DNA of 64,000 nt from Spinacia oleracea (taxonomy: Eukaryota > Streptophyta > Magnoliopsida > Caryophyllales > Amaranthaceae), in NCBI RefSeq assembly GCF_020520425.1, contig NC_079489.1:94468810-94532809 (forward strand), given 5' to 3'. The notes beneath the pieces are model-generated. The model worked only from the letters and a program-made list of their open reading frames with translations. It was not told where the DNA came from and searched no databases. This document shows positions 17,882 through 62,237 of this stretch, piece after piece. The stretch's first letter is position 1, and each line of letters starts with the position of its first letter. The position numbers and the translations under genes were made by a program.

Positions 17882-19218
17882 CGGGAACTGTAGACACCTA
17901 AATCGTGTCTCCCCATTGGGATGATGACGATACCATTATCCTTGTTAGGTGGTTGGAACAACTCCGTATGGAAGTACCAATTGATGATACCATTATCCTT
18001 GTTTTCCCTTGTGGCTTTAATGGACTGCCCTTCCCCTTAAACTTATAAGAATCAAAGTTACCCTTAGGTTCAACAAGATTAGCTTTTGCAGAACCAGAAA
18101 ACACAGATTGGCCCTTATCCATAATACGGTTCTCCTCCTCAATTTTCAGGTGACCTACGACTACGAGTTCCTCTAAGGTAAGGTCTTTCTTCTTATGCAT
18201 TAATTGGTTTCTAAAATCCTTCCATGAAGGTGGCAGTTTCTCAATTAAAACAATAGCAAGGGTTATATCACAAATACCCAAACCCTCGACAGCCTTAGCA
18301 ATGCAAATATTCTCATAATCATTAATCTGATCAATAATTGGTTTATCATCCTCAACTTGAAAATCTAACCACTTACTAACACAATAACGTTTAGTACCAG
18401 CATCATCAGTTCCATACTTTTTAGCTAAACCATCCCAAATATCCCTAGCATGATTATAACCCATATAAATATCAAGCAAAGCATTCGACATGTGATGCAA
18501 CAATATTCCCTTATAGGTTCTATCATCCTTAGCAAACTTCACCTCAAAATCATGCAATTCAGATTCATCATCAAGTTTCACAACATCATAAATAACATAC
18601 GCAACATCAATTTGTTCCAAATAAAATTTCATCCTAACAGCCCAACGTTTATAATTCTTTCCATCCAGAGGTTCCAATTTTGACATGTTAGGAATAAGAA
18701 ATTTCAAATTCATAGCCATAATTAAATTTGTCCCTTAGATTGTTAGCTAAATAAATAATTGGAACAACTTAGCTGGATATTACGTGTACACAAACTGAAT
18801 AATTTTTTCGCGCCGTGGCCGAACCACTGCTCTAAAAGGCAATTCTGCGCTACCTCTGATGCAGTAGAACACTTGCGGTTGCCCTCCAGGGTTAACACGA
18901 CACCAAGGTTTGTGTGCAATCACATAATTAATTAAACCCACTTCTGACCAAAATGAATAACCCGACCCACAAAACCAACCCCACGCCCGCATTTGCCAAG
19001 TACCAAGTAGCAAGTACCAAGGCCCATGGCCCACGGCGCTCGCGCGTGTGTGTTGTTTATCCACCCATGCCACTCTCATGCCTTCTTAAACAAATGTTTC
19101 CCTCAAGTCCCCAAATATAAACATTGAAACTAGTTGGTGTTTTCCCATGTGGGACTTTTCATGTTCCCACTTTTTCCCACTCATTTTCTTTTGTATTCTC
19201 ACTAGGACTTCCAACACA
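17882..19218 (-). pseudogene. Ty1/copia 5' LTR and gag fragment (unit A)
   Basis: The LTR reads from 19216 (TGTTGGAAGTCC) down to about 18870, followed by a PBS-like CTGCATCAGAGG. The gag starts at 18719 and runs 273 residues: KLEPLDGKNYKRW, then YGTDDAGTKRYCVSKWLDFQ, then LIEKLPPSWKDFRNQL, typical of copia gag (UBN2 type). It lacks the CCHC knuckle and all of pol. The frame ends at 17898, just past a duplicated AAGGATAATGGTATC. No functional product is expected. Confidence 0.8.
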
Positions 19219-24962: not shown

Positions 24963-25859
24963 TATTAATTTTTATTTTCGATAATAGAGGTCCATTTAGA
25001 TCCTATCAGTGTCTTCTAGATCCGTCCCTATTTCCAATATTACCCTTACTCACCCCACATTACTTCTCCCTCACACTACCTCGTTGTTTTCATAATTAGG
25101 GGTATTATGGTCTTTAAACTTTCTCATTCAACCCTATTTAATTTTGTGCTAAAATGTAATGTATCATCTAAATAAAAATACAGCAAATAATATCTTATGA
25201 ATTTATTAGCCTTTATTTTACTTTATTTTATATAATTAAACTTAAAATAAGTAAAAGTAATGAGGAGAAGAGAACCTAAATACTAGATGCACTTAGGTGC
25301 ACCTAATAATTTTCAACGAAAATAATATGGAGCGGAAATTTTTACGACTTATTTCATACTCCCTATGTTCCTTAATACTCTCACCGTTTTGATTTTTTGC
25401 ACTATTCACATAATTCACTCTGACCCCATTTTATTTCTAGTATATGAAAATAAATGTTAGTATACTTTCTCCGTTCCGCAAATATCGCACCATGTCGACT
25501 TTTGCACTATTCACGTTGTGCCTTTGACTATCTTTTGTAAAATATACGTAAAAAGCATGTAATCAAGTAGGATCTTATTAGATTCGTATCGATATATACT
25601 TTCTAAGTATAATTTTTTTTTAATAATTTTTACTTATACATAATTCAAGAGATAACGAGTCAAAGTCATGTGTTGGGAAGCGTGAAGTCAACATGGTGCA
25701 ATATTTCCGGAACGGAGGAAGTATAATATATTGTTGGCTTAATCTTAATACTTCCTTCGTTCCGGAAATATCGCACCATATTTTTTTTTTACACTATTCA
25801 CACTACGACTTTAACCATTTTTTGTGATTCGTACGTAAGGAAATTTTAGTCATGTGGGT

Positions 25860-26382
25860 TGTTGTGGGCAAAATTACCGTGCCTTCGTGTACCAATGAGG
25901 ATGTGACACATGGCACGTATTGCGCCCCCTAAAGCAGAAATCATACGAAGTCTACTCCGAGGCATGGGTATTAATCTAGGTATCTACAGTGTATGTATTT
26001 AAGTGTGTATAAATGTATGTATAAAACCTATACCTGGAAAGGGGCTTAATTAGTATGTACCCCAAGTGAATGACTAAGCACAATAGGCCCAAACAGCCCA
26101 CTATTGCCCAAAGAGGCCAGAGAATTGTAAGGAGAAAGGACACGTGTCCTCCTCCCATTCCCCAGCCAATCATGTAAGGGGAATATTAGGTCATTCCCCC
26201 AAAAACCTAGTACTATAAATATTCCCACTTCCCTAGAAAAAAGGGTCACAATCAATACATTCTAGAGCAATTACTGCTCTGCCTTCTCTCTACTTTCTCT
26301 CTCTATAAAAATACAATCTTGTTTAATCTGTAAAAGTTACCAAGAAACCTCCCAGGTATCTTACCGGAAAAACCCCACAACA
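25860..26382 (+). repeat. 5' LTR of the 12.2-kb Tat element
   Basis: TG...CA ends, 523 bp, TATAAATATTCCC near 26211. It contains CACGTG (26140-26145), a G-box core that could confer regulation. Its sequence is repeated at 37532-38054. Confidence 0.95.
26211..26220 (+). promoter_or_regulatory. LTR TATA box of the Tat element
   Basis: TACTATAAATATTCCC lies about 170 bp before the LTR end, and a second TATAAAAATAC occurs near 26304. The first is the likelier promoter for genomic RNA. Confidence 0.5.
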
Positions 26383-26384
26383 TT

Positions 26385-26402
26385 TGGCGCCGTCTGTGGG
26401 GA
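26385..26402 (+). promoter_or_regulatory. Primer binding site of the Tat element
   Basis: TGGCGCCGTCTGTGGGGA begins two bases after the LTR. TGGCGCCGT is complementary to the 3' end of plant tRNA-Asp from memory; the rest matches less well. The same block occurs at 40267 and 62209 and, one G shorter, at 17507. Confidence 0.7.
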
Positions 26403-26413
26403 GGTACGGTAAC

Positions 26414-29400
26414 ATGGAAGATCAACGACAGGACAACGATGCTGGGCGGCCTACACGCGTAGAGCGGCCACCCCTCGAAAGAGAAATGCCGACTGAACAT
26501 CATACGCCGGCCACAAGAATCACTGAAGATGCCGCACGTACATTTGCGGCCGGGCACACCCCTCGTCACACTGCCGAGGTAGAGGTGCTCAGCGAGGAGG
26601 ACGACCAGGCCAATCGCATCCCTCCTGGAGGACACCTGGATCCTCGGGTGGATACGGTAATAGAGGAGAACCCTGATATGCCTGTCTCTGTGGGTGCTCT
26701 TCGGGCTATTTTGGCCGAGTTCCAAGCTGATGTAGGGAAGACAGTTAATGCTGAGGTACAGAAGAGTATGCTGATTTACACCACTGCTGTGGCTGCAAAT
26801 CCTGAGAGGCCGGCAAGCAATAGGCCAACACTTTCTTTACGCCCCCCAAATGTCTGGACCAGGCTGACAGGCGAGGACCTAAGGAGACAGCCGCCAACAA
26901 GTCAGCCAAATCAGACCATGTCTTACCTACCACGCCGAATGCCACGGCGGCTGGTCGGAGAAACGTCCCGAGGACGTGAGCAGCCACGCGCAGAGCAGTT
27001 GCCCGACTCTGAGTCGGAACTTTCTGACACCGGGTCAACCCCCGTCATGCCGGATAGACCTCTCCCTCATCCAACTTATACGCATCTGAGCCAGGCACGC
27101 CCAGGGGCCACCCGTCCAACCCGTCAAACTCGCGGACGCGAGTCCTCCCTGCGGCTACCTTACTCCAGGCGTCAAGACCCTGTATATCACATTCAGGAGG
27201 GGGTGTCCAACATGGCATTAGGGCACACCACCCCTTTTGCAGACTCTATCATGAGAGCCCCGAGGGAACCCAAAGTCAAGCCGCCCAACATTGATGCTTA
27301 CGATGGTACCACAGATCCGGACATGCACCTCTTGGTTTACCGGCATCACATGTATGTCCAAGGAACAACTGACTCAACTTGGTGTAAGTATTTCCCGGGC
27401 ACACTCAAAGGAGTAGCCTCTAAGTGGTTCGAGAGACTTCCAGCCGGAACTATTCGCTCTTTTTCGGAGCTCGAGCTATTGTTCTCTACTCGGTTCATGG
27501 CTCACAAGGAAGAGAAGAAGACGAGCATGCATCTGAGTAGGATTCAGCAAGGGAAGGACGAGTCCCTGAGGAGTTATGTGAAGAGATTCAATCTAGAGGC
27601 AGGGCAAATTCCGGATTTGCCAGATGGTGTTGCATTCGATAACTTCATTCGAGGGCTTAAAAAGGGCTCTTTCAAGTTTGATCTGGTAAAGAAAAGCGTC
27701 CGAACAATGGCAGAAGTGCTGGATGAGGCGGAGGCCTTCATTCATGCAACAGAGATTTGCAGCGTCCCGAAAGACCCCAGAGGAAGTGATAACGCCGAGC
27801 TAGCGGCAAAAAAGGAGAAATTTGAAAAGAAGAACCGGCCTAACGGGACGTGGGCTATTGCAAAAGAATCAGACAGGGCCCCCGGAGCGGCAGGTCAGAA
27901 ACGGCCCAGAACTTATGATCGGGAGCGTTTCGAGTATAACACAGACATGTACACAATTCTGATGGACGTCGGGTCCAAATATGACATTGATCGTCCATTT
28001 CCCATGAAGTCGCCACCAGAGAGTAGGGACCCCAAACTGTACTGTCACTTTCACAGTGACATTGGGCATGACACCAATGAATGTAAGAGCTTGAAAAGGG
28101 CATTGGATGGCCTAGCCACCAAGGGGTTCTTAAAAAGTTATATCAGCAGGAACACGGGAGGTTCAGGCAAACCCTTCTACAAGAAAAACAAATCCCCCCC
28201 CTCGGAGGAAGATGGGAATCGTACCGACCCGGAGTGCGTGGCAGTCATCTCAGGAGGATTGGCCGCCGGCGGGCCGACCATGAGGGGCCAGAAGGATTAT
28301 GCCAAGCGACTGGGACAAGTGATGCTGTCCGGCAAGGCCACAGTTGACCCGTTTCCAAAAGTTGAAATCGGCGAGGCCGACCGTGGGAAAATCTCCACCC
28401 CGCATGACGATCCTTTGGTAATTGAGTTAAAAGTAGCTAACCTAAGGGTTAGGCGTATTTTGGTTGATACAGGAAGTTCGTCGGACATAATTAGTCTAGA
28501 GTGCTTGAATCGGCTGCAACATGATCCCTCAAAAATTGAGAAAATCCACTATCCCATTATAGGCTTCGGAGGTAGTGTCATCCACCCAGTCGGCATAATT
28601 ACCCTTCCTCTGAGGATGGGAAATAAAAAGGAATCTCGGCAAATGGATGTCCGTTTTCTCATAGTGAAAGATCTGACGGCATATAACATCATCTTGGGGC
28701 GTCCCACGTTGAACAGGGCAAAGGCTGTCATTGTGACTCATCTGATGCTTCTTAAGATCATTTGTGACGATGGGAGCGTCAGCACTATACATGGTGACCA
28801 GCAACAAGCTAGAGATTGCTACCTAACCACCTTGAGTCCAGAAGCATGGGGGACGGGTGAAGAGAAAGGGACGTCGAGCAACAAACGAAAATGTGGCGAC
28901 ACGCAACCCAAGGTCGTCAAAGAAACATTAACTATCTCAGCAGGGCACATGGAAGAGAGACGCCCAGAGCCTGTTGGGGCCCATTTCAATGTGGTTTTAA
29001 ACACAGACAAACCTGACAGAGTAGTGCCCATCGGGATTTCTCCTGACGACCCGCTGGCGGCAGAATTGGTCCACCTTTTGAGAGAATTTGAAGATATCTT
29101 TGCTTTCACGGTGGACGAAATGCCGGGTATTGACCCTGCTGTGGCCGTCCATAAGCTGAATGTGGACCCAAACTTTAAACCGGTTCGTCAGAAGAAAAGG
29201 AACCATGGGGAAGATAGAAATCAGGCGGCAGCCGCGGAAATACAGAAGTTGATGGAGGCTGGGTTCGTCAGGCCTAGTCAGTACCCCGACTGGGTTGCTA
29301 ATGTGGTCCTCGTCAAAAAACCTAATGGTACCTGGAGAATGTGTGTTGATTACACCAACCTCAATAGGGCATGTCCAAAGGACAGTTTCCCATTGCCCAA

Positions 29401-32176
29401 GATTGACCGGCTCGTCGACTCTACAGCGGGGCATGCCATGATGAGCTTTATGGATGCCTACTCAGGGTTTCACCAGATTCCGTTGTGGCCTGACGACCAG
29501 GAGAAAACGTCATTTGTTACTGAACAAGGCCTTTACTGCTACAAGGTGATGCCGTTTGGGTTAAAAAATGCACCGGCCACTTTTCAGCGTCTTATTAACA
29601 CTGTGTTCATTAAGCAGCTCGGCAGGAATATTGAAGCTTACATTGACGATATGATCGTAAAAAGTAAGCTGAGGGCGGCGCATATAACTGATCTCAGAGA
29701 GACATTTGAGACTATTCGAGCTTACAACATGAGGTTGAATCCTAAGAAGTGTGTGTTCGGGGTGACGGCAGGCAAATTCTTAGGTTTCTTGATTGATGAA
29801 AGAGGAATTGAAGCTAACCCAGACAAAATCCAGGCAGTAATTGATATGAGCTCACCAAAGACAGTGAAGGAGGTTCAGCGGCTCACAGGTTGCTTGGCCG
29901 CCCTGGGCAGATTCCTTTCCAGGGCTGGAGACAAGTGCCACTACTTTTTTAGATCTGTCAGAAAGAAGGCCAAGTTTGAATGGTCGGACGAGGCCGAGGC
30001 GGCATTGGTCAGATTAAAGGAGCACTTACACACCTTGCCTCGTCTTGTTAGTCCCTTGCTAGGAGAGACTTTGTACATGTATCTCGCCGTGTCCGAGCAC
30101 TCGTTGAGTGCCGTTCTACTGACAGAGAGGGAGGGAATACAGATGCCGGTATACTTTGTCAGTCATGTTCTTCAAAATGCTGAAGTTAGATATCCTACAG
30201 TGGAAAAGTTTGGCTTAGCTCTGTTCATGGCCAGCAAAAAGCTCCGTCCTTATTTCTTAGCTCACAAAATTGTGATCTACACCGATCAGCCGCTCAAACT
30301 GCCCTTCACAAAGCTGGAGGCGTCAGGACGAATGCTGAATTGGGCAATAGAGCTGAACGCCTTTGATATCACCTATGAGCCGAGGAAAGCTGTCAAGGGG
30401 CAGGCATGTGCCGACTTCATTGTTGAAATGACGAGGCCAGACTTTGCCAAGAATACAAGCACAGTGTGGACAGTGTATGTAGACGGCTCATCCACACAGA
30501 ATGGATGTGGAGCAGGGATAATCTGTCACTCCCCAGAAGGAGATACTTTTGAATATGCTATGCGATTTAACTTCCAGGCGTCAAATAATGAAGCCGAATA
30601 TGAAGCCCTGCTTTGTGGCATTAAAATGTGTAAGGCGGCAGGCGCCGAGGAGATTGTAGCACTATCTGACTCCCAACTGATTGTGAGCCAAGTTAATGGG
30701 ACCTACGAAGCTAGGGATCCGACTATGGTCAAATACATGCAGGCCGTCCATCAGGAAGTAGAGCCACTGAAAAGTTTTGAAGTAAGGCAAGTCCCTCGCT
30801 CGGAAAATAACCAAGCTGATGCCCTGTCAAAGTTGGCAAGTTCCGCGTCTTGTGATACCCCTCGGCACGTGTTCTGGGAGGTAAAAGAGCACAAAAGTGT
30901 TGAGCAAATGGAAGTGGAAACTCTTGACAGAACGTCCACATGGATGGATGACATAGTAAACTTCAAAATGAATGGAGTCTTGCCCGAAGACTCAAGGGAA
31001 GCGGCAAAACTTCAAAAGAAATGTTCTTGGTTTGAAATGTGGAACGGCACCCTCTACAAAAAGGCCTACTCCCGTCCTTTGTTAAGATGTGTAACACCTG
31101 AGAAGGGGCAGGAAATTTTAGAAGACCTTCATCAGGGGTTGTGCAGCTCGCATATTGGTGGAAGGGCTTTGGCTGAAAAGGCACTTCGAACCGGCTATTA
31201 CTGGCCGACCCTTAAGGAGGACGCAATCTCACTGGTCAAGAAGTGTGACAAATGTCAGCGCTTTTCTCACCTAATACATCAACCGGCACGAGTTCTGACG
31301 CCCATTATAAGCCCAATTCCATTTGCTAAATGGGGGATGGATCTCCTAGGCCCATTCACGACCGCACCAGGAGGAAGGCGTTATGTCATCGTTGCCGTAG
31401 ATTACTTCACCAAATGGGTGGAGGCAGAAGCGCTCAAAAACATAAAAACTGCTGATGTGAGAGCATTCATTTGGAAGAACATCATGACTCGCTTTGGGAT
31501 TCCACAGGCTATAGTCTTCGATAATGGGCCCCAGTTTGAGACGCCTAAGCTGAAAGAGTGGCTGGCAGATCACGGTATACACACCTGTTTTGCATCAGTC
31601 GGACGACCCCAAGCCAATGGTCAGGTTGAGGCGTTCAACAAAATTATCTCTGAAGGAATTAAAAAGAAGCTTGACGAAGCCAAAGGTCTATGGGCTGATG
31701 AGCTGCCAAATGTCTTATGGTCCATCCGCACCACGGCTAAGAATTCAACCGGTGAAACGCCCTTCTTGCTAGCCTATGGCGCCGAGGCTGTCCTACCCAT
31801 AGAAATGTGTGAGCCAACGTTGAGAGTCATGCTGTATGACGAAAATGCTAACTGGGAGACAATGAAAGCAGCCTTGGACTTTCTGCCCGAGGTTAGAGGA
31901 AATGCAGCGCTCAGGCAACAGCTGTACAAGATAAGGATGGCAAGAGAATACAACAAGAGAGTCTCTAATAGAGTGCTCAAAGTGGGAGATTTTGTCCTCA
32001 GAAAAATGGAGTCCACAGGACGAGCAAATGAACAAGGTAAGCTGACGCCCACTTGGGAGGGACCTTACGAGATCTATGATGAAGTTAGAGATGGAACCTA
32101 CCGCATTCAAGACATGCAAGGCCGCCCTATTTCACGCACTTGGAATGCCGACAACCTCAAGAAATATTTCTTCTAA
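26414..32176 (+). CDS. Gag-pol polyprotein of the Tat retrotransposon, intact, 1920 aa
   Basis: The start is the ATG at 26414 (MEDQRQDND), the first ATG after the PBS. Domains in order: disordered acidic/Arg-rich N-part (1-280); gag from YDGTTDPD at 296; a variant zinc knuckle CHFHSDIGHDTNEC at 544; aspartic protease with LVDTGSSSD (Asp685); reverse transcriptase about 930-1110 with YIDDM (Asp1078-Asp1079); a first RNase H about 1215-1330; a second, archaeal-like RNase H about 1352-1480 (YVDGSS, ASNNEAEYEALL); integrase zinc finger (HIGGRALAEK near 1578, CDKCQRF); and integrase core Asp1643, Asp1703, Glu1739, an exact D-35-E spacing. Two RNase H domains are a mark of the Tat clade. No frameshift or stop. 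It copies and inserts the element; particles form in the cytoplasm. Confidence 0.95.
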   Translation: MEDQRQDNDAGRPTRVERPPLEREMPTEHHTPATRITEDAARTFAAGHTPRHTAEVEVLSEEDDQANRIPPGGHLDPRVDTVIEENPDMPVSVGALRAILAEFQADVGKTVNAEVQKSMLIYTTAVAANPERPASNRPTLSLRPPNVWTRLTGEDLRRQPPTSQPNQTMSYLPRRMPRRLVGETSRGREQPRAEQLPDSESELSDTGSTPVMPDRPLPHPTYTHLSQARPGATRPTRQTRGRESSLRLPYSRRQDPVYHIQEGVSNMALGHTTPFADSIMRAPREPKVKPPNIDAYDGTTDPDMHLLVYRHHMYVQGTTDSTWCKYFPGTLKGVASKWFERLPAGTIRSFSELELLFSTRFMAHKEEKKTSMHLSRIQQGKDESLRSYVKRFNLEAGQIPDLPDGVAFDNFIRGLKKGSFKFDLVKKSVRTMAEVLDEAEAFIHATEICSVPKDPRGSDNAELAAKKEKFEKKNRPNGTWAIAKESDRAPGAAGQKRPRTYDRERFEYNTDMYTILMDVGSKYDIDRPFPMKSPPESRDPKLYCHFHSDIGHDTNECKSLKRALDGLATKGFLKSYISRNTGGSGKPFYKKNKSPPSEEDGNRTDPECVAVISGGLAAGGPTMRGQKDYAKRLGQVMLSGKATVDPFPKVEIGEADRGKISTPHDDPLVIELKVANLRVRRILVDTGSSSDIISLECLNRLQHDPSKIEKIHYPIIGFGGSVIHPVGIITLPLRMGNKKESRQMDVRFLIVKDLTAYNIILGRPTLNRAKAVIVTHLMLLKIICDDGSVSTIHGDQQQARDCYLTTLSPEAWGTGEEKGTSSNKRKCGDTQPKVVKETLTISAGHMEERRPEPVGAHFNVVLNTDKPDRVVPIGISPDDPLAAELVHLLREFEDIFAFTVDEMPGIDPAVAVHKLNVDPNFKPVRQKKRNHGEDRNQAAAAEIQKLMEAGFVRPSQYPDWVANVVLVKKPNGTWRMCVDYTNLNRACPKDSFPLPKIDRLVDSTAGHAMMSFMDAYSGFHQIPLWPDDQEKTSFVTEQGLYCYKVMPFGLKNAPATFQRLINTVFIKQLGRNIEAYIDDMIVKSKLRAAHITDLRETFETIRAYNMRLNPKKCVFGVTAGKFLGFLIDERGIEANPDKIQAVIDMSSPKTVKEVQRLTGCLAALGRFLSRAGDKCHYFFRSVRKKAKFEWSDEAEAALVRLKEHLHTLPRLVSPLLGETLYMYLAVSEHSLSAVLLTEREGIQMPVYFVSHVLQNAEVRYPTVEKFGLALFMASKKLRPYFLAHKIVIYTDQPLKLPFTKLEASGRMLNWAIELNAFDITYEPRKAVKGQACADFIVEMTRPDFAKNTSTVWTVYVDGSSTQNGCGAGIICHSPEGDTFEYAMRFNFQASNNEAEYEALLCGIKMCKAAGAEEIVALSDSQLIVSQVNGTYEARDPTMVKYMQAVHQEVEPLKSFEVRQVPRSENNQADALSKLASSASCDTPRHVFWEVKEHKSVEQMEVETLDRTSTWMDDIVNFKMNGVLPEDSREAAKLQKKCSWFEMWNGTLYKKAYSRPLLRCVTPEKGQEILEDLHQGLCSSHIGGRALAEKALRTGYYWPTLKEDAISLVKKCDKCQRFSHLIHQPARVLTPIISPIPFAKWGMDLLGPFTTAPGGRRYVIVAVDYFTKWVEAEALKNIKTADVRAFIWKNIMTRFGIPQAIVFDNGPQFETPKLKEWLADHGIHTCFASVGRPQANGQVEAFNKIISEGIKKKLDEAKGLWADELPNVLWSIRTTAKNSTGETPFLLAYGAEAVLPIEMCEPTLRVMLYDENANWETMKAALDFLPEVRGNAALRQQLYKIRMAREYNKRVSNRVLKVGDFVLRKMESTGRANEQGKLTPTWEGPYEIYDEVRDGTYRIQDMQGRPISRTWNADNLKKYFF

Positions 32177-32560
32177 GATATGTGCTAAGCCTTGTCTTAC
32201 TTACCACGATCCATTGCCCAAGGGGCGGCCTCTAATGGTCATAGTAGGGTAGTAATTACTTTTGTAACCGGCTAAATTCGCCTTGCAAAGTTATAAATAA
32301 TACTACTCTATTTGTTTCGTAATATTTATTGTTCGCACAATGAATATAAACATATACACTCCAATGCATAACCAAAGCCTAATTGTATGACGGCCTGAGA
32401 AGTGGCCCAGATTAGCAAAAACTCAGCAAGACTAATTGTTTGAAGCCTAAGTAGTGGCCCAGATTAGCACCAAGTTGTAGGCTGATCACCTATCCAACTA
32501 CCCTCCTAATATAAGCAAGCCGCTGGCCGACCATTACAGCATAATACGTGCCAGCGGCAC
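32177..32560. other. Spacer after gag-pol in the Tat element
   Basis: Non-coding. It carries two variants of a block, GCCTGAGAAGTGGCCCAGAT near 32393 and GCCTAAGTAGTGGCCCAGAT near 32446. The same block (GGCCTAAGGAGTGGCCTAGA) occurs in the non-autonomous element at 63372, linking the two families. Confidence 0.6.
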
Positions 32561-32564
32561 GATT

Positions 32565-32770
32565 AACTTTGAAACATAGGTTGTTCGCTCAAAAGCCCAG
32601 CGGCATGAACAACTTTGAAACATAGGTTGTTCGCTCAAAAGCCCAGCGGCATGAACAACTTTGAAACATAGGTTGTTCGCTCAAAAGCCCAGCGGCATGA
32701 ACAACTTTGAAACATAGGTTGTTCGCTCAAAAGCCCAGCGGCATGAACAAACTTTGAAACATAGGGTGTT
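32565..32770. repeat. 46-bp tandem repeat in the Tat element
   Basis: About 4.4 copies of a 46-bp unit starting AACTTTGAAACATAGG and containing GTTCGCTCAAAAGCCCAGCG. Starts at 32565, 32611, 32657, 32703 and about 32750. Nearly identical copies. Confidence 0.9.
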
Positions 32771-33440
32771 TGCTAAAAAGCGCGGCGGCACGAATGTTTG
32801 GCCGGCCAGTCCGTTTGACGAGCATGTCTAGCGGCAATCATACCTATTGATTGACTTGCGTCAATCAATATCGTCATAGACACGCTCGCCAAAGAAAGTG
32901 ACGACCAAAGTAGGGCCTAGCGCATGCTCAGTTGCCAGCGGCACCAAACACTTGGAAACAAAGGTTGTCCGCTCAAAAGTTCAGCGGCACGATTAACTTC
33001 GAAACAAAGGTTGCTTGCTAAAAAGCCCGGCGGCACGAATGTTTGGCCGGCCAGTCCGTTTGACGAGCATGTCTAGCGGCAATCATACCTATTGATTGAC
33101 TTGCGTCAATCAATATCGTCATAGACACGCTCGCCAAAGAAAGTGACGACCAAAGTAGGGCCTAGCGCATGCTCAGTTGCCAGCGGCACCAAACACTTGG
33201 AAACAAAGGTTGTCCGCTCAAAAGTTCAGCGGCACGATTAACTTCGAAACAAAGGTTGCTTGCTAAAAAGCGCGGCGGCACGAATGTTTGGCCGGCCAGT
33301 CCATTTGACGAGCATGTCTAGCGGCAATCATACCTATTGATTGACTTGCGCCAATCAATATCGTTATAGACACGCTCGCCAAAGAAAGTGACGACCAAAG
33401 TAGGGCCTAGCGCCTACTCAGTTGCCTGCGGCATTAACGT
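32771..33440. repeat. 245-bp tandem repeat with internal hairpin in the Tat element
   Basis: About 2.7 copies of a 245-bp unit, with GGCGGCACGAATG at 32784, 33029 and 33274. Each copy carries ATTGATTGAC-TTGC-GTCAATCAAT, a perfect 10-bp stem in copies 1 and 2 and one mismatch in copy 3. Part of each unit resembles the 46-bp repeat (GTCCGCTCAAAAGTTCAGCG). Confidence 0.9.
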
Positions 33441-33775
33441 GCTTAGTGTACTCTCGGATGCACCTTGGCAACCATACCTATTGATTAAGCCTATTAAGCC
33501 TATTGATCAAGGAATAATCAAACTATGAAGAGCAAGTAAATGCGAGATAGGAGAAACATCAAAAAACCTATTTACTTATAAAACAACGCCTGTAGAAAGG
33601 CGTGTGAAAGTAGCTCAGAATTCCTGACCAGGAAAAAGAAAGAGAATTGTTGTGTGCTCAGCAGGCACAATGATACAGACGCCATCAGCGCCAAAACTTT
33701 ACAACATAATTGTTTTTGCCCTTAGGCACTGGAACGCTTGAATAAAATTTTTAAAAAAATAGGAAAGGAAGCAAA

Positions 33776-36700
33776 TCAGGGGGCGGCCGCATCGTCCTCG
33801 TCATCAGATGATACAAACTCAGGGGGCGGCTGACCAAGACGTTCAGCAGCCAACACAGCGGCACTGTGCTCCATTCGCCGCTGGAACCACCCAAGATCAT
33901 ACTCTGACATGTGGCTCTCCCAGGCGTGCTTAACAGCGTCTTTGGTCGCTTGTTCCCCCTGATCATAGGATTCCAGAAGACGCTCACGCAAGGTGCGAAC
34001 TTGCGATCTGGCCGTCTCTAGCTCCCCACGAAGATGCTCGGCTTCCTCAGCCGCCTCTTTGACCTGAGGGTACTCCCGCAACTGGTCCTGAAGCGCCCGT
34101 ATTTCCGCCGCCGCTGTCTTGGCTTCCTCGACCATTGCCACCATGTCCTTGTCCTGCGCCAAGATCTTCTTAAGCAGCTCGGCCTTGTCAGATCTCAACG
34201 CAGCCACCTCCTTCGCTTGAAGGTCTATGGTCGTCTGCATCTGCAGGCGGACCTCTTCAATGGACTTGAACGCATAGTCACCATGGTGGGTGGACTCAGC
34301 CACCTGAGCTTTGAGCTCCTCAGCAGTGCGGGCCTTCCAGCTCTTGCAGAATTCCATGCGGCAGAACAACTGCAGAATAAGCTACATATTAGTAAATGAC
34401 TCTAAAAGGGAAGACAAGTACAAGCAAGTTGGAAATAGACTTACGTCGAGAAGAGTGGCCTGGATCGCACCAAACTGGGCGTCAGTCTTGCGGCCAGGAA
34501 GAGAAGCAACATACTCAGCGGGGACGGCCTTAAAAACCTTGCGGCATATAGCCACCCTATCCTTTGACGAATAGTGTGGAGTAGCAGGTACGTTCTCATC
34601 CTCGGCAGCAGCTGCATCCTTCCCTTTGTCTTTGGCTATAGGAAAAACAATGGCCTTAGGATGACGCGGAGAGTAAGAAGAACTGCCAGAGGAGGCTCGA
34701 TACGTCTGAACGACGTTCGAATAATACTTACCGCCCGAAGACCTAGCTCGGCGGGCCACCTCCGCCGGTATCTGAGAGCGGACGTCGGCCGGGATTCCCG
34801 AAAGAGGGTCCTCCACCAAGTCCACCACCAGAGACGGCTTGTCCACGCCCATCTCTTCGTCATCAGGGCATCCCCCCTCAGCAACCTTCGACTCGTCTTT
34901 CTTCACGAGACGGCGAGGTAGAGGCTTTGGCTTCTTGAAGGTACTCGGAGTCTCCGAGCCAGCCGGCACAGCTCTCTTCTTCAGCTGGGACAGAGTCGTC
35001 CCCTTCTTCTTCCCAGACGCCCTAGCCGCGTCCTTAGCTTGCTAAAAAAGAAAGGACAGTCAAATATTAGGCCTCGTCATCTATCACAAGCCACTCACAA
35101 GATAGTGGCTCGTCATTAAAAAGGACGACCGTCTTCAAAATGACGAGGCGTACCTCATCGATCACAAGCCACTCACAAGATAGTGGCTCGTCATTAAAAA
35201 GGACGCCCGTCTTCAAAATGACGAGGCGTACCTCATCGATCACAAGTCACTCACAAGATAGTGGCTCGTCATTAAAAAGGACGCCCGTTTTAAAAATGAC
35301 GAGGCGTACCTTATCAATCACAAGTCACTCACAAGATAGTGGCTCGTCATTAAAAAGGACGCCCGTCTTAAAAATGACGAGGCGTACCTCATTAATCACA
35401 AGTCACTCAATAAATAGTGGCTCGCCATTAAAAAGGACGCCCGCCTTAAAAATGACGAGGCGTACCTTATCAAGTGCAAGTCAATCGCAGAAAAGTGGCT
35501 CGTCATTAAAAAGGACGCCCGTCCCAAAAATGACGAGGCGTACCCTATCAATCACGAGTCACTTGAAAAAACGCTAACTAAGGGGCCCGTCAATAAAAAG
35601 TGACGAGGCCTACCTTAGCAAACACGGGTCAGATATCAGGATATCGGCTCGTCACTAAAAAGACGTCCACTATAGACGCTGGACGGGAGAAGTTCAACTT
35701 GCAAAAAAGAAAAAAAAAAAAAAAAAAAAAAAAACGACAACCTAAGAGAATACTCACCTTCTCCTCCAACTCGGCCTTGGCTTTCTGCATCTTGGCCTCA
35801 TAGATGTCCGCCATCCAATCGGTCATATCGCCCTTCCCAATATCCGCCGCCGATAGCTTGCTCATTCCTTCCTCTGTGAACAAAAGAAATCCAAAGTTAG
35901 AAAAAATTAATAGACCCACGCAGAACGGCACATAAATTGGCATACAACCTCGAGTCATGGAATATCCTAAGCCTACGGCCGCTAGAAAGGCCTCGTTCCG
36001 AAACTGGCTAATGTGCGGCAACCACTCGGCCGGCACATGGAAACTCTTATCCACTGTTAAGTGGTAAGTGTTGGCCCTGAACAGGACCATTATCTGATCC
36101 CACTCTTCGGCAGTAAGGGGGGGAAGGGGCTCGTCACGATCCATGAAGTTGGCGTCACAGTTCCAACGGCTCATTCTCTCATACATCTCCTGGTCGTCAG
36201 TGTAAAACACGACCCACCTCTTCCTCCACATATGCCACTTGCTGAGCTTGCCGACCACTGTCTGGTAGGTACCACGGCTGCTCAGATTAAACCACCCTTT
36301 GGCGGCACTGGGGGAACGAGAGAGGGAGACCAGATGCAGAAAGGCGTTGAAGGACGGCTCCACGTCGTTCAATGCACATTTGGCAATGTAGCCAAAGATA
36401 TCCGCCCATGAGTTGGGGGTCAGCTGGGCCACCCCAATATTGAAACCGTCTAACACCTCCACAACGAAGGGGTGTGGAGGGAATCTCATGCCGAGTTTGA
36501 TTGACGCTGCATACACAGGGAATTCTCCCTCGGCAAGCAGGCTGACGGTCGAGTCCAGACCGGCCGGCACGCGCATTTGGTACCCTTCCCCCACGCAGAG
36601 GTCATCCCTCATCTTGGCTCCGTGCCTGTCTAGCCACCGCATCCAGCCCACGTCTGGGTGAATCTCTGACGGAAGCAATTGGGCCTCCTCCCGTCCTCTG

Positions 36701-36972
36701 GGCCTAATAAGCTGGGGAGCAGCTTCTTGTTCCTCGGCGGCCGATGACAATGGAGCGACGCTTGGCTCCCCCACTGCCTGGCTCGCTGTACCCTCCGACG
36801 AGCTTGCCGCCTGCTCCCCCGCCTCGACGTACTCGTCGATCTCTTGAAAGAGTTCGGCAAATTCTTCGTCGACTGCCGAGGCGGTGGAAGAATATCTCTC
36901 CCTAGGAGGTGTCGATGCTTCTTCCCGCAAGCGCAGGCGCGTCGGATCTGCCGTTTGCTTGGTTCTAGCCAT
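33776..36972 (-). CDS. Antisense spliced gene of the Tat element (aORF), 776 aa, H3-tail-like N-terminus
   Basis: Exons on the minus strand: 36972-35949, 35873-35758, 35041-34445, 34369-33776. Junctions are GT/AG (donors GAG-GTTGTA, AAG-GTGAGT, GAC-GTAAGT; acceptors TTCACAG, TTTTTTAG, TTCTGCAG), phases agree, and the 2331 bp read without a stop. The protein begins M-ARTKQTA-DPTRLR. Residues 10-105 are disordered and acidic. About 150-262 resembles the plant 'putative gypsy type transposon' domain (FPPHPFVVEVLDGFNI, LTPNSWADIFGYI, KGWFNLSSRG). Residues 380-560 are basic and low-complexity. About 600-750 is a long Glu/Lys/Ala coiled coil. The acidic end is SSDDEDDAAAP. Antisense ORFs between pol and the 3' LTR are known in Tat elements; their function is unknown. 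The 75-bp first intron is in frame and stop-free, so retention adds 25 residues. Confidence 0.85.
35080..35600. repeat. 78-bp tandem repeat within an intron of the antisense gene
   Basis: About six copies of a 78-bp unit, with ATGACGAGGCGTACC at 35140 and 35218 and on to about 35530. They lie in the intron between 35758 and 35041. The unit length is a multiple of three, giving a spurious repetitive plus-strand frame (MTRRTSSITSHSQDSG). An A-tract of more than 20 bases lies nearby at 35711-35734. Confidence 0.9.
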
Positions 36973-36977
36973 GCCTT

Positions 36978-37177
36978 CTGCATAGTGAACGAAGCACGGC
37001 TTAGGGGTGACCAACAATGAAGAAAAAGACGCGATTGGACGTCCGCCCCGACAAAAGATGAACGGCGGAAAAATCTTAAATAAAACCTTTAAACCCTTAC
37101 CTAGTACTAAGAGGTCGGCCGCTAACAAAGGGAAAAATGACGAGAGGATAACAAAAACAAGAAAGGCGAAAACTAAC
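36978..37177 (-). other. Predicted 5'-UTR intron of the antisense gene
   Basis: Donor CAAG-GTTAGTTT at 37177 and acceptor CACTATGCAG at 36978, six bases before the ATG. The exonic leader between the TATA box and 37178 has no ATG on the minus strand. After splicing, the first ATG is therefore the one that starts M-ARTKQTA. If the intron is retained, an out-of-frame ATG at 36983 comes first. Confidence 0.6.
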
Positions 37178-37202
37178 CTTGAAAGATCTGCGAAGTACTT
37201 GG

Positions 37203-37270
37203 TGAAGAACAGGATGAGTTTCGCGAAGAACGAGATGAGTTTCGCGAAGAACGGGATGAGTGTGACGAGG
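37203..37270. repeat. Short 21-bp repeats in the antisense leader
   Basis: GAAGAACNNGATGAGTTTCGC occurs about three times in tandem in the presumed transcribed 5' leader of the antisense gene. Function unknown. Confidence 0.7.
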
Positions 37271-37390
37271 AAAAGGATGAGTCTCCTGGTGGCCGGAAAT
37301 CGCCTGATGGTGGTAGGAGCACGCCGGAAATCGCCTATGAAAGCTCTGTGAAAATGAAATGTAAAAAATGAAATTTACCCCCCCTCACCT

Positions 37391-37400
37391 CTATATATAG
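37391..37400 (-). promoter_or_regulatory. TATA box of the antisense gene
   Basis: CTATATATAG lies about 420 bp upstream of the ATG and about 215 bp upstream of the 5'-UTR intron donor. It is a perfect palindrome inside a larger inverted repeat (CCCCTCACCT ... AGGGAGGGG), so it could direct transcription either way. Toward plus it would run into the 3' LTR. Confidence 0.55.
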
Positions 37401-37531: not shown

Positions 37532-38054
37532 TGTTGTGGGCAAAATTACCGTGCCTTCGTGTACCAATGAGGATGTGACACATGGCACGTATTGCGCCCC
37601 CTAAAGCAGAAATCATACGAAGTCTACTCCGAGGCATGGGTATTAATCTAGGTATCTACAGTGTATGTATTTAAGTGTGTATAAATGTATGTATAAAACC
37701 TATACCTGGAAAGGGGCTTAATTAGTATGTACCCCAAGTGAATGACTAAGCACAATAGGCCCAAACAGCCCACTATTGCCCAAAGAGGCCAGAGAATTGT
37801 AAGGAGAAAGGACACGTGTCCTCCTCCCATTCCCCAGCCAATCATGTAAGGGGAATATTAGGTCATTCCCCCAAAAACCTAGTACTATAAATATTCCCAC
37901 TTCCCTAGAAAAAAGGGTCACAATCAATACATTCTAGAGCAATTACTGCTCTGCCTTCTCTCTACTTTCTCTCTCTATAAAAATACAATCTTGTTTAATC
38001 TGTAAAAGTTACCAAGAAACCTCCCAGGTATCTTACCGGAAAAACCCCACAACA
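37532..38054 (+). repeat. 3' LTR of the 12.2-kb Tat element
   Basis: 523 bp, read as identical to the 5' LTR. Followed by the TGGGT target duplication. Confidence 0.95.
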
Positions 38055-38423
38055 TGGGTCATGTTAGATTCGTATCGATATATATTTTCTAAATATTAAA
38101 TTTTTATAACTTGTACTTGCACACTATTTGAGATATTAAGAGTCAAAGTAGGGGTTGGAGGATTAAAAGTCAGCCATGGTGCGATATTTCCGGAACGGAG
38201 GAAGTATATATATTTTCAAAATAATAAAATTTTAAAAGTTTTTATAATATGTATAATGATGGTCAAAGTTATACATTGACATAAGTATTCAGTCAAAACG
38301 GTGTAAGTATTAAGACACGGAGGGAGTATCAAATATGGAGATAGATATGGGTTTATAGCTTTTATTACAACCTTCTTACCCGTACCCATAAGACATAAGC
38401 AAAACACCAACTTCCACGCCACA

Positions 38424-40642: not shown

Positions 40643-41979
40643 CGGGAACTGTAGACACCTAAATCGTGTCTCCCCATTGGGATGATGACGATACCATTAT
40701 CCTTGTTAGGTGGTTGGAACAACTCCGTATGGAAGTACCAATTGATGATACCATTATCCTTGTTTTCCCTTGTGGCTTTAATGGACTGCCCTTCCCCTTA
40801 AACTTATAAGAATCAAAGTTACCCTTAGGTTCAACAAGATTAGCTTTTGCAGAACCAGAAAACACAGATTGGCCCTTATTCTTAATACGGTTCTCCTCCT
40901 CAATTTTCAGGTGACCTACGACTACGAGTTCCTCTAAGGTAAGGTCTTTCTTCTTATGCATTAATTGGTTTCTAAAATCCTTCCATGAAGGTGGCAGTTT
41001 CTCAATTAAAACAATAGCAAGGGTTATATCACAAATACCCAAACCCTCGACAGCCTTAGCAATGCAAATATTCTCATAATCATGAATCTGATCAATAATT
41101 GGTTTATCATCCTCAACTTGAAAATCTAACCACTTACTAACACAATAACGTTTAGTACCAGCATCATCAGTTCCATACTTTTTAGCTAAACCATCCCAAA
41201 TATCCCTAGCATGATTATAACCCATATAAATATCAAGCAAAGCATTCGACATGTGATGCAACAATATTCCCTTATAGGTTCTATCATCCTTAGCAAACTT
41301 CACCTCAAAATCATGCAATTCAGATTCATCATCAAGTTTCACAACATCATAAATAACATACGCAACATCAATTTGTTCCAAATAAAATTTCATCCTAACA
41401 GCCCAACGTTTATAATTCTTTCCATCCAGAGGTTCCAATTTTGACATGTTAGGAATAAGAAATTTCAAATTCATAGCCATAATTAAATTTGTCCCTTAGA
41501 TTGTTAGCTAAATAAATAATTGGAACAACTTAGCTGGATATTACGTGTACACAAACTGAATAATTTTTTCGCGCCGTGGCCGAACCACTGCTCTAAAAGG
41601 CAATTCTGCGCTACCTCTGATGCAGTAGAACACTTGCGGTTGCCCTCCAGGGTTAACACGACACCAAGGTTTGTGTGCAATCACATAATTAATTAAACCC
41701 ACTTCTGACCAAAATGAATAACCCGGCCCACAAAACCAACCCCACGCCCGCATTTGCCAAGTACCAAGTAGCAAGTACCAAGGCCCATGGCCCACGGCGC
41801 TCGCGCGTGTGTGTTGTTTATCCACCCATGCCACTCTCATGCCTTCTTAAACAAATGTTTCCCTCAAGTCCCCAAATATAAACATTGAAACTAGTTGGTG
41901 TTTTCCCATGTGGGACTTTTCATGTTCCCACTTTTTCCCACTCATTTTCTTTTGTATTCTCACTAGGACTTCCAACACA
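40643..41979 (-). pseudogene. Ty1/copia 5' LTR and gag fragment (unit B)
   Basis: Copy of 17882-19218. Gag ATG at 41480, 273 residues. It differs by a few residues (IHDYEN for INDYEN, RIKNKG for RIMDKG). LTR start near 41977. Confidence 0.8.
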
Positions 41980-49489: not shown

Positions 49490-49698
49490 GAGTCCGGATC
49501 CTCTATAGTTTTAATAAAACTCTACAAGGTAGAGTTGTATCTAAACCATACATTTTAAAATCAATGGCTCATATTGATGAGAAAAAATATGGAGAATTTT
49601 GGAAAGATAATATATGAACCATTGATTTTTATCCAATGTTTGATATGCTCAAACTCTACCTTGTAGAGTTATTTTGGAACTCTAGAGGATCCAAAACC
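49490..49698. mobile_element. Mutator-like MITE, 209 bp
   Basis: Inverted ends GAGTCCGGATCCTCTATAGT and AACTCTAGAGGATCCAAAAC continue into CTCTACAAGGTAGAGTT-type arms. The 9-bp duplication TAATTACCT flanks it exactly (49481-49489, 49699-49707), fitting Mutator-derived MITEs. The right end of the tandem duplication falls inside it, at 49557. Confidence 0.8.
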
Positions 49699-49889
49699 TA
49701 ATTACCTATATTACATAAGATATTTCCCGAATTATTATACATACAAAATCAAAGATCTTTGAATAATCAGCCGAAAATTCCTGGTGCGATTCCAAATCAA
49801 CGCCTGTCACTCTGTCAAGAATATCTTCGACCATTAAGGTCTAGGCCACTGATTGAATTAAGGCATGCCCTCCTTTTCTATCAAAACAG
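49699..49889. other. Helitron interior left of the copia insertion
   Basis: No coding. Ends in AACAG, the copia target duplication. It carries CCTGGTGCGATT near 49781, as does the Helitron 5' end. Confidence 0.5.
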
Positions 49890-51275
49890 TGTTAGGTTAT
49901 GATACATATGACAATTCATAAATCATGCGGAAAAACCATTTAGCCAGGAATACATATTATTTACACATAATCATATAGCATAGTTTAGATGCATACTCTT
50001 TGTTGCGTGCCTTCCCTAGCTGCGCCCGAACCGAACAAGAACAAGTCTTTAGGACTACAAGTGTCGTCCCTCCGTAGATAGTCCACAACACGTCCGGATC
50101 CGCCTTAAGATTGACCAACTAGAATCGCCCTTAAGGTACTAAAGATTTTCGGCATTTTAGTCAAGGAATGTGTCTGAATTTTCTCTCAAAAACTCACTTT
50201 GAATACTTGAATAATCTATGAAAATATGTGACCCTAGGCACCTATTTATAGAGTTATGGAAAGGGTTTTGAAATCTTATTAGGATACTAATTTATTTAAT
50301 TATAACCCTACTAGGACTCTAATTAAATAATCATTATCTAATAGTTTTAGGATTTAATCACACTTCGAATCCCGATTGCTTCAGGATTCCCGCACAAGCA
50401 TTGCACGAGTACCGTACACCCGCGCAAGCCTTGCGGCCCACGCTAGGCGCACAGCGCTCGGCCCACTGCTGTGCTCTCGCGCGCGCGCCCAAGGCTTTGG
50501 CTGGGCCTGGAGTTGCGCTGGGCCTGGTCGAGGCTTGGCGTGCGATAGTGCGCGTTGGCTCGCTGGGCGACGGCCTGGCTTCGTGCTGGGCCTTCGTCTA
50601 GCGGGCCTCGTCCGATGCTAATTCGTACAATACGCTTCCGATTAAATTCCCGATTCCGGAATTCATTTCCGATACGAACAATATTTAATATTTCCGATTC
50701 CGGAATCAATTTCCGTTTCGAACAAATATTTAATATTTCCGTTTCCGGAATTATTTTCCGATTCCGATAATATTTCCGATTCTGACAATATTTCCGTTTC
50801 CGGCAATATTTCCGATTCTGGCAATATTTCCATTTCCGATAATATTTTCCGATACGTACCATGTTTCCGTTTCCGTTTCCGGCAACATCTACGACTTGGA
50901 TAATATTTATATTTCCGATACGATCCATATTTCCGTTTCCGGCAATATCATCGTTTCCGGAGTATTCATTTCTTGCCTGTGACGATCTCAGCTCCCACTG
51001 AAACCAAGATCCGTCGATTCCGAATATCCATAGATGGAGTATTTAATGCCATTAAATACTTGATCCGTTTACGTACTATTTGTGTGACCCTACGGGTTCA
51101 GTCAAGAGTAATCTGTGGATTAATATCAATAATTCCACTTGAACTGAAGCGGCCTCTAGCTAGGCATTCAGCTCACTTGATCTCACTGAATTATTAACTT
51201 GTTAATTAATACTGAACCGCATTTATTAGACTTAACATAGAATGCATACTTGGACCAAGGGCATTATTTCCTTCA
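49890..51275 (-). repeat. 3' LTR of the copia element
   Basis: 1386 bp, ends TGAAGG...CTAACA on the minus strand. It contains a C+G-rich block (50400-50620) and an imperfect array of TTTCCGATTCCGG units (50625-50965). Open frames inside it are by-products. Confidence 0.92.
50625..50965. repeat. TTTCCGWTTCCGG array in the 3' LTR
   Basis: About 20 irregular copies of (AATA)TTTCCGTTTCCGG/TTTCCGATTCCG, period about 17-20 bp. The same array is in the 5' LTR at 59655-59995. Confidence 0.85.
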
Positions 51276-52141: not shown

Positions 52142-54370
52142 TCAAAGCCATTCTCCAATATGCTTGATTCCCATAGCTGCAGTGTGCGAGTTGTGCTTCG
52201 CTTGCGGCAGAGGTTTAGCCAATGGATCTGATATGTTGTCATCAGTTCCAATTTTGCTTATCTCGACTTCTTTTCTTTCAACGAACTCTCGTAGAAGGTG
52301 AAATCTACGAAGTACATGCTTGACTCTCTGGTGGTGTCTAGGCTCCTTTGCCTGTGCAATAGCTCCGTTATTGTCACAATACAGGGCTATTGGTCCTTTA
52401 ATGGAGGGGAATACACCAAGTTCACCTATGAACTTCCTTAGCCATATAGCTTCCTTTGCTGCTTCATGTGCAGCAATGTACTCCGCTTCAGTTGTAGAAT
52501 CCGCAATGGTGCTTTGCTTAGCACTTTTCCAACTTACTGCTCCTCCGTTGAGGCAGAAGACAAACCCAGACTGTGATCTGAAATCATCTTTGTCGGTTTG
52601 GAAACTTGCGTCCGTATAGCCTTTAACAATTAATTCATCATCTCCACCATAGACCAGGAAGTCATCTTTGTGCCTTTTCAGGTACTTCAGAATGTTCTTG
52701 GCAGCAGTCCAATGCGCCTCTCCTGGGTCTGACTGGTATCTGCTCGTAGCACTGAGTGCGTACGCAACATCCGGGCGTGTACATATCATAGCATACATTA
52801 TTGAACCAATCAATGATGCATATGGAATCCCATTCATTCGTCTACGCTCATCAAGTGTTTTTGGGCACTGAGTCTTGCTTAGAGTCATTCCATGAGACAT
52901 GGGTAGGTAGCCTCGCTTGGAGTCCGCCATCTTGAACCTATCAATCACCTTATTGATATAAGTGCTTTGACTAAGTCCAATCATCCTTTTAGATCTATCT
53001 CTGTAAATCTTGATGCCCAATATGTACTGTGCTTCTCCTAGATCTTTCATCGAAAAACATTTCCCAAGCCAAATCTTGACAGAGTTCAACATAGGAATGT
53101 CATTTCTGATAAGTAATATGTCGTCTACATATAATACTAGGAAAGCAATTTTGCTCCCACTGACCTTCTTGTATACACAAGATTCGTCTGCGTTCTTGAT
53201 GAAACCAAAGTCACTAACTGCTTCATCAAAACGTATATTCCAGCTCCTGGATGCCTGCTTCAATCCGTAGATTGACTTCTTTAGCTTGCATACCTTTTTA
53301 GCATTCTTTGGATCCTCAAAACCTTCAGGCTGTGTCATAAACACAGTTTCTGTTAAAACGCCGTTTAAGAAAGCAGTTTTGACATCCATCTGCCATATTT
53401 CGTAATCGTAATATGCAGCGATTGCTAATATTATCCGAATAGACTTTAGCATTGCAACTGGTGAAAAGGTTTCATCGTAATCCACACCGTGGACTTGCCT
53501 GTAACCTTTTGCAACCAATCTAGCTTTGAAAACTTCAAGTTTCCCATCCTTGTCCTTTTTCAGTTTGAAAACCCATTTGCTTCCAATGGCTTGGTAGCCA
53601 TCTGGCAAATCGACCAAATCCCATACTTGGTTTTCAGACATGGAGTCTAATTCAGATTGCATGGCTTCTTGCCACTGCTTGGAGCTAGGGCTCGTCATAG
53701 CTTGTTTGTAAGTCGCAGGTTCATCACTTTCAAGTAATAGAACGTCATAGCTCTCGTTCGTCAAAATACCTAAGTACCTTTCCGGTTGAGATCTATATCT
53801 TTGCGATCTACGCGGGGTAACATTTCTAGATTGACCATGATTCTCACTAGATTCTTCTAAAGATCTCTGAGTTTCATCCTGAATGTCATCTTGAGCATTC
53901 TCTAGAGTTTGTTGTTCGACTCGAATTTCTTCGAGGTCTACTTTTCTCCCACTTGTCATTTTGGAAATGTGATCTTTCTCCAAAAAGACACCATCTCGAG
54001 CAACAAACACCTTGTTCTCAGATGTATTGTAGAAGTAATACCCCTTTGTTTCCTTTGGATAGCCCACAAGGATACATTTGTCAGATTTTGGATGAAGTTT
54101 GTCTGAAATTAATCGTTTGACGTATACTTCACATCCCCAAATCTTAAGAAAAGACACATTTGGAGGCTTTCCAAACCATAATTCGTATGGAGTCTTTTCG
54201 ACAGCTTTAGACGGAGCTCTATTTATAGTGAGTGCAGCTGTATTTAGTGCATGTCCCCAAAATTCTAATGGAAGTTCGGCCTGACCCATCATTGACCTGA
54301 CCATGTCTAGCAAGGTTCTGTTCCTCCGTTCCGACACACCGTTCCATTGTGGTGTTCCTGGAGGAGTCAA
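52142..54370 (-). pseudogene. Copia pol: integrase C-part, reverse transcriptase, RNase H
   Basis: 742 residues open from 54370 (PPGTPQWNGVSERRNRTLLD, carrying the catalytic Glu of integrase). RT follows with KARLVAKGYRQVHGVDY, WQMDVKTAFLNG, YGLKQASRSW and the catalytic LVLYVDDILLIRND near 53115. RNase H follows with GYTDASFQTD, DSTTEAEYIAAHEAA and YCDNNGAI. It ends HIGEWL at 52142. The domains look complete. The frame is separated from gag by a stop near 54471 and a frameshift near 54770, so full gag-pol cannot be made as read. Confidence 0.93.
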
Positions 54371-54737
54371 TTCTGATAGAATTCCACATTCTTTCAGATG
54401 GTCATCAAATTCATAGCTCAGATATTCACCGCCTCTATCAGACCGCAGTGCCTTAATCTTCTTGCCTAATTAATTCTCTACTTCACTCTGAAATTCCTTG
54501 AATTTGTCAAAGGATTCAGACTTATGCTTCATTAGGTAGACATAACCATACCTACTGAAGTCATCAGTGAAAGTGATAAAGTAGCTGAAACCACCTCTAG
54601 CATTTGTACTCATTGGTCCACATACATCTGTATGGATTAAACCCAATAGTTCATTTGCTCTTTCTCCAACTTTAGAGAAAGGTTGCTTTGTCATTTTGCC
54701 AAGTAAACATGATTCGCATTTACCATAATCCTCTAAG
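54371..54737 (-). pseudogene. Copia integrase N-part, interrupted by stop and frameshift
   Basis: The frame at 54470-54694 carries IHTDVCGPMSTNARGGFSYF and FTDDFSRYGYVYL, with the first integrase Asp. It stops after EFQSEVEN, where CAA appears as TAA, then resumes with LGKKIKALRSDRGGEYLSYE, holding the second Asp. A one-base shift near 54770 separates it from the gag frame. Confidence 0.85.
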
Positions 54738-62206: not shown

Positions 62207-62208
62207 TT

Positions 62209-62226
62209 TGGCGCCGTCTGTGGGGA
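62209..62226 (+). promoter_or_regulatory. Primer binding site of the non-autonomous element
   Basis: TGGCGCCGTCTGTGGGGA, identical to that of the 12.2-kb element at 26385. Confidence 0.7.
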
Positions 62227-62237
62227 GGTATAGTATC

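Follow-up and report, generated by a model that had tools for sequence, protein, structure and literature searches.

A histone H3-like N-terminus kept in several families of antisense TRP28 proteins of spinach retrotransposons

Antisense TRP28 genes in retrotransposons are already known, as the accessible parts of two reports describe (PMC11963269; PMC7264820). According to the available part of the first (Vicient 2025, PMC11963269), Retand elements have LTRs of 315–1,194 bp, internal regions of 7,380–12,869 bp and a POL–3′LTR region of 2,933–6,566 bp, 97% of the Retand clusters with recent activity have an antisense TRP28 ORF, and the TRP28 protein of Grande is nuclear. The words histone, chromatin, mimic and N-terminal are absent from that available text. 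From a different field, the accessible part of PMC12612597 has SNAG domains mimicking H3 tails to recruit LSD1.

The window considered here, a 64-kb stretch of spinach (Spinacia oleracea) nuclear DNA, contains a Retand-type Ty3/gypsy element with an antisense TRP28 gene. Its two LTRs, each of 523 nt on the plus strand (25860..26382 and 37532..38054), are 100% identical (the BLAST alignment is of 524 nt, as one flanking T is included), and TGGGT both just precedes the 5′ LTR (25855–25859) and just follows the 3′ LTR (38055–38059); insertion was therefore recent. A single plus-strand gag-pol ORF (26384..32176, 1930 aa as listed from TTG) has Retrotrans_gag, RVT_1, RNase H and rve domains. The 5,355 bp from pol to the 3′ LTR contain repeat arrays, with 46-, 245- and 78-bp spacing, and the antisense gene. 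The 46-bp and 245-bp arrays are at 32551–33484, directly downstream of pol and before the end of the antisense gene. The 78-bp tandem array (35001..35624, minus strand) is wholly inside predicted intron 3 of that gene, so its length could vary with the protein untouched. The resemblance to Retand, as characterized in the accessible part of PMC11963269, is in an antisense PF04195 ORF between pol and 3′ LTR, in tandem arrays, and in sizes that are all within the Retand ranges (LTR 523, internal 11,149 and POL–3′LTR 5,355 bp). The Spinacia oleracea 1 cluster listed there has an LTR of 425 and an internal region of 10,719, as against 523 and 11,149 for the window element. Placement in Retand fits on lengths, tandem arrays and antisense TRP28, the reverse transcriptase being known here as a Pfam RVT_1 match.

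Other repeats share the window. Near-identical copia-type gag ORFs of 273 aa, about 23 kb apart, flank the Retand-type element (17898–18719 and 40659–41480, minus strand), and a further copia-type element is present in two long minus-strand ORFs at 52142–56201 (gag to gag-pre-integrase, and integrase end to RT). Two near-identical repetitive ORFs of 161 aa, rich in Arg, Asn and Lys, are at 50443–50928 and 59473–59958 (minus strand). Long overlapping ORFs at 62208–63308, with a short SSRRLIKAPHQ-like repeated unit, probably come from a tandem repeat that is open in several frames. The tRNA-Pyl called by ARAGORN with the bacterial code at 49629–49722 (minus strand) is almost certainly a false hit, as this is a plant nuclear genome.

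The antisense gene is predicted to have five exons on the minus strand (33776..37370), with GT-AG junctions and one clean frame of 776 aa. Exon 1 (37370–37178), whose start is assumed, is leader, and exons 2–5 are 36977–35949, 35873–35758, 35041–34445 and 34369–33776. Shifting the end of exon 2 by one base in either direction breaks the frame. A TATATA box at 37399 (minus strand) is upstream of the assumed transcription start at 37370 and provides a predicted promoter; splicing and promoter alike are predictions from this gene model. From the TATA box to the start there are only two ATGs, one at 36983, out of frame and inside the predicted 200-nt leader intron (36978..37177, minus strand, GTTAGT...TATGCAG), and the other at 36972, which is the first in-frame ATG of its minus-strand open frame. 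Removal of the intron takes out the former, and in the predicted spliced leader the AUG at 36972 would be the first, 198 nt from the assumed transcription start. The earlier note's claim that splicing makes this the first AUG thus holds on the five-exon model. It is limited to the window copy, as copies of the families termed B and C below have further upstream ATGs. In 8 copies checked, a TATATA box 419–431 nt upstream of the ATG was present in 4 (A, A2 and two C) and at that distance in 0 of the 4 B copies, which counts against a common promoter; a leader donor was found by simple pattern in 4 of the 8 (A, A2 and two B).

Read on the minus strand from 36972 in the 64-kb window translation, the protein begins MARTKQTADPTRLRLRE. 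The letters and coordinates given previously were exact: the start codon and seven codons at 36949..36972 specify MARTKQTA, which once Met is removed is residues 1–7 of histone H3, and the peptide with free N-terminus is ARTKQTADPTRLRLRE. By sequence and gene model, the H3 residues would be at the free N-terminus of the protein. The gypsy-type domain claimed for it is also real, and is the TRP28 (Transposase_28) domain PF04195, matched in the antisense frame with E 3.3e-11 and 43.7 bits against the Pfam cut-off of 26.2, at residues 154–217 of the window protein P0002 (36322..36513, minus strand, coordinates from residue numbers). Between it and the N-terminus is a linker (residues 18–95) rich in Glu, Ala, Ser and Pro, with a charge of −12. 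The coiled coil also claimed is at best suggested by weak, sub-cutoff Pfam matches in the last exon.

Is this start shared? The spinach assembly (894,210,420 bases) was searched, and every TRP28 family compared comes from this one genome. For the window's own family, A, the genome has 3571 candidates, of which 98 were scored; in every one of the 98 the alignment begins at residue 1, and the 20 fetched, that of the window included, all read MARTKQTADPTRLRLREEAS. As best-scoring copies, these say little on decay. A less biased set, defined by an upstream anchor plus intact ATG and terminal GC, gave 307 matches, and letters were obtained for 65 of the 100 listed. Among these 65 anchored copies, 61 have MARTKQTA, two MARTKQKA, one MARTKQMA and one MARTKKTA, with no amino acid change from Ala1 to Lys4. 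Their distinct codon changes are 5 synonymous and 3 nonsynonymous, where neutrality would give 24–29% synonymous, and this excess is a weak sign of selection within family A. (A binomial p of 0.118 is not counted as evidence, as it rests on a typed rate of 0.36, higher than the computed 0.24–0.29.) A close family, A2 (L097), 80% identical to A, reads MARTKQTAD.

More diverged relatives were found through the domain rather than the motif, at 50 loci (30 of 150 scored places and 20 more). Twelve of them have the family B start, most often ARIRQTAN and overall MARI(R/K)QTAN, and 8 that of family C, most often ARTKKTAN (MARTKKTAN); 16 belong to a motif-free family and in 14 the start was not found. 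Families B and C are 38–48% identical to A. Of H3 residues 1–7, A matches 7, C 6, B 5 or 6, and one further TRP28 family none. In these domain-found copies family C has Lys4 in 8 of 8 and also Lys5, while family B has Ile3 throughout (12 of 12) and Arg4 in all but one (11 of 12). At the 16 motif-free loci the open frame leading into the domain (MDNNSKPQLE..., MASDELAG...) has no such motif, though an upstream exon may exist. The check on mimicry proposed earlier, conservation of ARTKQTA, gives a mixed picture that leans in favour: two diverged families keep A-R-(T/I)-(K/R)-x-T-A-N at the N-terminus, and the open frame of one further family shows nothing of the kind. An H3K4-methylation epitope common to these proteins is not supported as such, given Ile3 and Arg4 in family B and the 16 of 50 loci with no motif in the open frame. 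In four B or C copies the frame breaks shortly past the start. Other C copies read ACG or AAG and then ATG GCG, but L068 reads ATG ACG GCG; with the usual start lost and a new one a codon earlier, its product is MTARTKNTAN, in which Ala1 would no longer be at the N-terminus.

The preservation is of peptide rather than of DNA, as far as sequence comparison can tell. Of the 8 residues of A at positions 2–9, 5 or 6 recur in each of families B and C. At residues 18–90, identity is 5/61 for A–B, 21/67 for A–C and 13/59 for B–C, and in the TRP28 domain it is 41 or 42 of 64 among the families. All three families are identical in 4 of 8 columns at residues 2–9 versus 4 of 81 at residues 10–90 (Fisher p 0.0017, from one representative per family and with the test chosen after the alignment was inspected). 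For codons 2–9, A versus A2 has 3 identical, 5 synonymous and 0 nonsynonymous; A versus C (L083) has 2 identical, 4 synonymous and 2 nonsynonymous; A versus B (L063) has 1 identical, 4 synonymous and 3 nonsynonymous; and B (L057) versus C (L083) has 6 synonymous and 2 nonsynonymous. With residues 2–9 alike and their codon differences mostly synonymous, and residues 18–90 aligning poorly, the N-terminus is a conserved short protein motif.

Genome-wide pattern searches, each with a reversed control, reveal where such starts are. The narrow pattern MA(R/S)TKQTA has 353 matches in the genome and 0 in reverse; each of the 100 listed has Arg rather than Ser, 94 of them with a retrotransposon spelling and 6 with that of H3. 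An accident in one copy is ruled out by these 353 matches and the copies aligning from residue 1. The broad pattern, M-A-(R/S)-(T/I/M)-(K/R-like)-x-T-A, is found 698 times versus 2 reversed, and the 100 listed comprise by spelling 94 retrotransposon, 2 H3, 3 H3-like fragments and 1 chance match. MARTKQTA accounts for 45 of them (43 with the retrotransposon spelling and 2 with that of H3), and the others are 32 MARIRQTA, 11 MARTKKTA, 6 MARIKQTA, 3 MARTKHTA, and one each of MARIRHTA, MARIRKTA and MASTSITA (chance). All of the first 30 listed, which were fetched, begin as family A, A2, B or C, and the one H3-spelled match fetched (L121) is H3. Because these very motifs served to build the patterns, the counts show confinement among the matches listed and are not an unbiased survey. 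MARTKHTA was considered as the start of another retrotransposon family and rejected when two of its three places, L119 and L120, were fetched and proved to be H3-like fragments, MARTKHTAKNSTG and then a stop. L119 and L120 have near-identical flanks, and are perhaps CENH3-like pseudogene copies.

Outside the plant genome, the DNA pattern (Arg or Ser allowed) occurs in 18 stretches of a prokaryotic contig collection: 8 are histone H3 or H3-like, 5 are MASTKQTA and the remaining 5 are MARTKQTA frames 15 to 100 codons long. No relatives were found in viral_contigs by the P0002 protein, by alignment A1 or by the motif pattern, and a search of PDB chains with the A1 profile gave no match with an E of 1 or below.

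What keeps the start as it is could in principle lie in the nucleic acid, as a DNA or RNA constraint on the acceptor (TATGCAG) and on the ATG with its context, since a TATGCAG acceptor is present a few bases upstream of the ATG in most A, B and C copies inspected. Third positions, however, vary freely under a constant peptide (A versus A2, 5 synonymous to 0 nonsynonymous), and the synonymous codon differences among families disfavour constraint at the DNA level alone, which is very unlikely. That an element took over the motif from the beginning of a host H3 gene is scarcely credible. Family A and genomic H3 (L121) do differ at only 4 of 24 nt over codons 1–8, all synonymous, but similarity beyond residue 7 was looked for and not found: after ARTKQTA the antisense protein has DPTRLRLRE where L121 has RKSTGGKAPR. 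Moreover, A2, B and C use other codons for the motif, which fits old shared descent and not a recent H3 copy.

The alternative of substance is that the motif is selected for another job, such as that of a small basic motif in nuclear import, DNA or RNA contact or binding of a partner other than an H3 reader, and that one subfamily matches H3 by coincidence, met with because so many sequences were examined. This is a real possibility. The changes T3I, K4R and Q5K/N preserve a basic Ala-Arg-x-basic-x-Thr-Ala pattern and not H3 itself, the basic stretch continues in A (RLRLR) and in C (DLRLR), and one TRP28 family lacks the motif. Against it stand the chance of an exact match, some 6e-9 per N-terminus (from rough typed residue frequencies, with Ala2 at 25%), and the broad-pattern counts, forward versus reversed and by class among the 100 listed. 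Mimicry of the H3 tail and an unrelated selected motif are about equally likely. Variation at Thr3, Lys4 and Gln5, Asp/Asn8 and the motif-free family argue against a simple H3K4me mimic, residue 8 being Arg in H3. Thr6-Ala7, not generally known as key reader contacts, are among the best kept positions of the motif, which also counts against mimicry.

H3-tail docking is nevertheless, from the sequences, the most specific hypothesis that can be put forward, given the identity in A, the 5 or 6 of 7 residues elsewhere, the N-terminal place and a protein class with a nuclear member. What the sequences show is the motif, its position, its recurrence in three diverged families from a single genome, and mostly synonymous change beneath it. 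In the mechanism envisaged, M-A-R-(T/I)-(K/R)-x-T-A-(D/N) is at the very N-terminus, followed by a variable acidic linker, which would expose it, and then the TRP28 domain. Removal of the initiator Met would leave a free Ala-Arg end that may dock in a host pocket for the H3 N-terminus, belonging either to a reader of PHD, ADD or WDR5 type or to an enzyme of LSD1 type, and docking would either bring that factor to element DNA or occupy it, so tuning the chromatin state of the element. That the selected motif docks in this way, and that the antisense protein tunes element chromatin, is a serious possibility falling a little short of an even chance. With either Lys or Arg at position 4, what the families have in common would be the reading of Ala1-Arg2, and Lys4 methylation could matter only in members with Lys at that position. 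Two further points weigh against docking: N-terminal acetylation could block it, and the PHD finger of ING3 is reported to bind unmodified H3 1–12 only at ~130–180 µM, versus 0.6–0.9 µM with K4me3, in the available part of PMC5000080. A fuller version, in which the antisense N-terminus is a maintained imitation of the H3 tail that recruits or titrates readers through Ala1-Arg2 and so protects or directs the element, with a methylatable Lys4 or a non-methylatable Arg4 as natural variants among subfamilies, is less likely than not but a fair possibility. The escape from silencing and choice of targets suggested in the earlier note are candidate roles.

The conserved H3-like N-terminus offers a concrete and cheap hypothesis for TRP28 proteins, and, if true, histone mimicry would extend to plant retrotransposons. 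The retrotransposon matches to MARTKQTA bear in any case on histone gene annotation, and on controls for antibodies to the H3 N-terminus.

The closest counterparts are SNAG domains, whose sequence is not identical to that of H3 and which are carried by host zinc-finger repressors; here, in contrast, the letters are those of H3 1–7 and the carrier is a retrotransposon protein. What is alike is that a short N-terminus is proposed as an H3-tail mimic, as for the SNAG of Snail1 and GFI1-type factors in the accessible part of PMC12612597. In titles and the starts of abstracts, no paper was found linking TRP28/PF04195 or retrotransposons with this motif or with mimicry; SNAG-type N-terminal mimicry and antisense TRP28 genes are each known, and nothing among those titles and abstract starts joins the two. 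The viral histone mimic influenza NS1 has its H3-tail-like peptide at its C-terminus. Like NS1, the spinach proteins have an H3-tail-like peptide on a protein encoded by a parasite, but here it is at a true N-terminus, and the parasite is a germline retrotransposon present in hundreds of copies.
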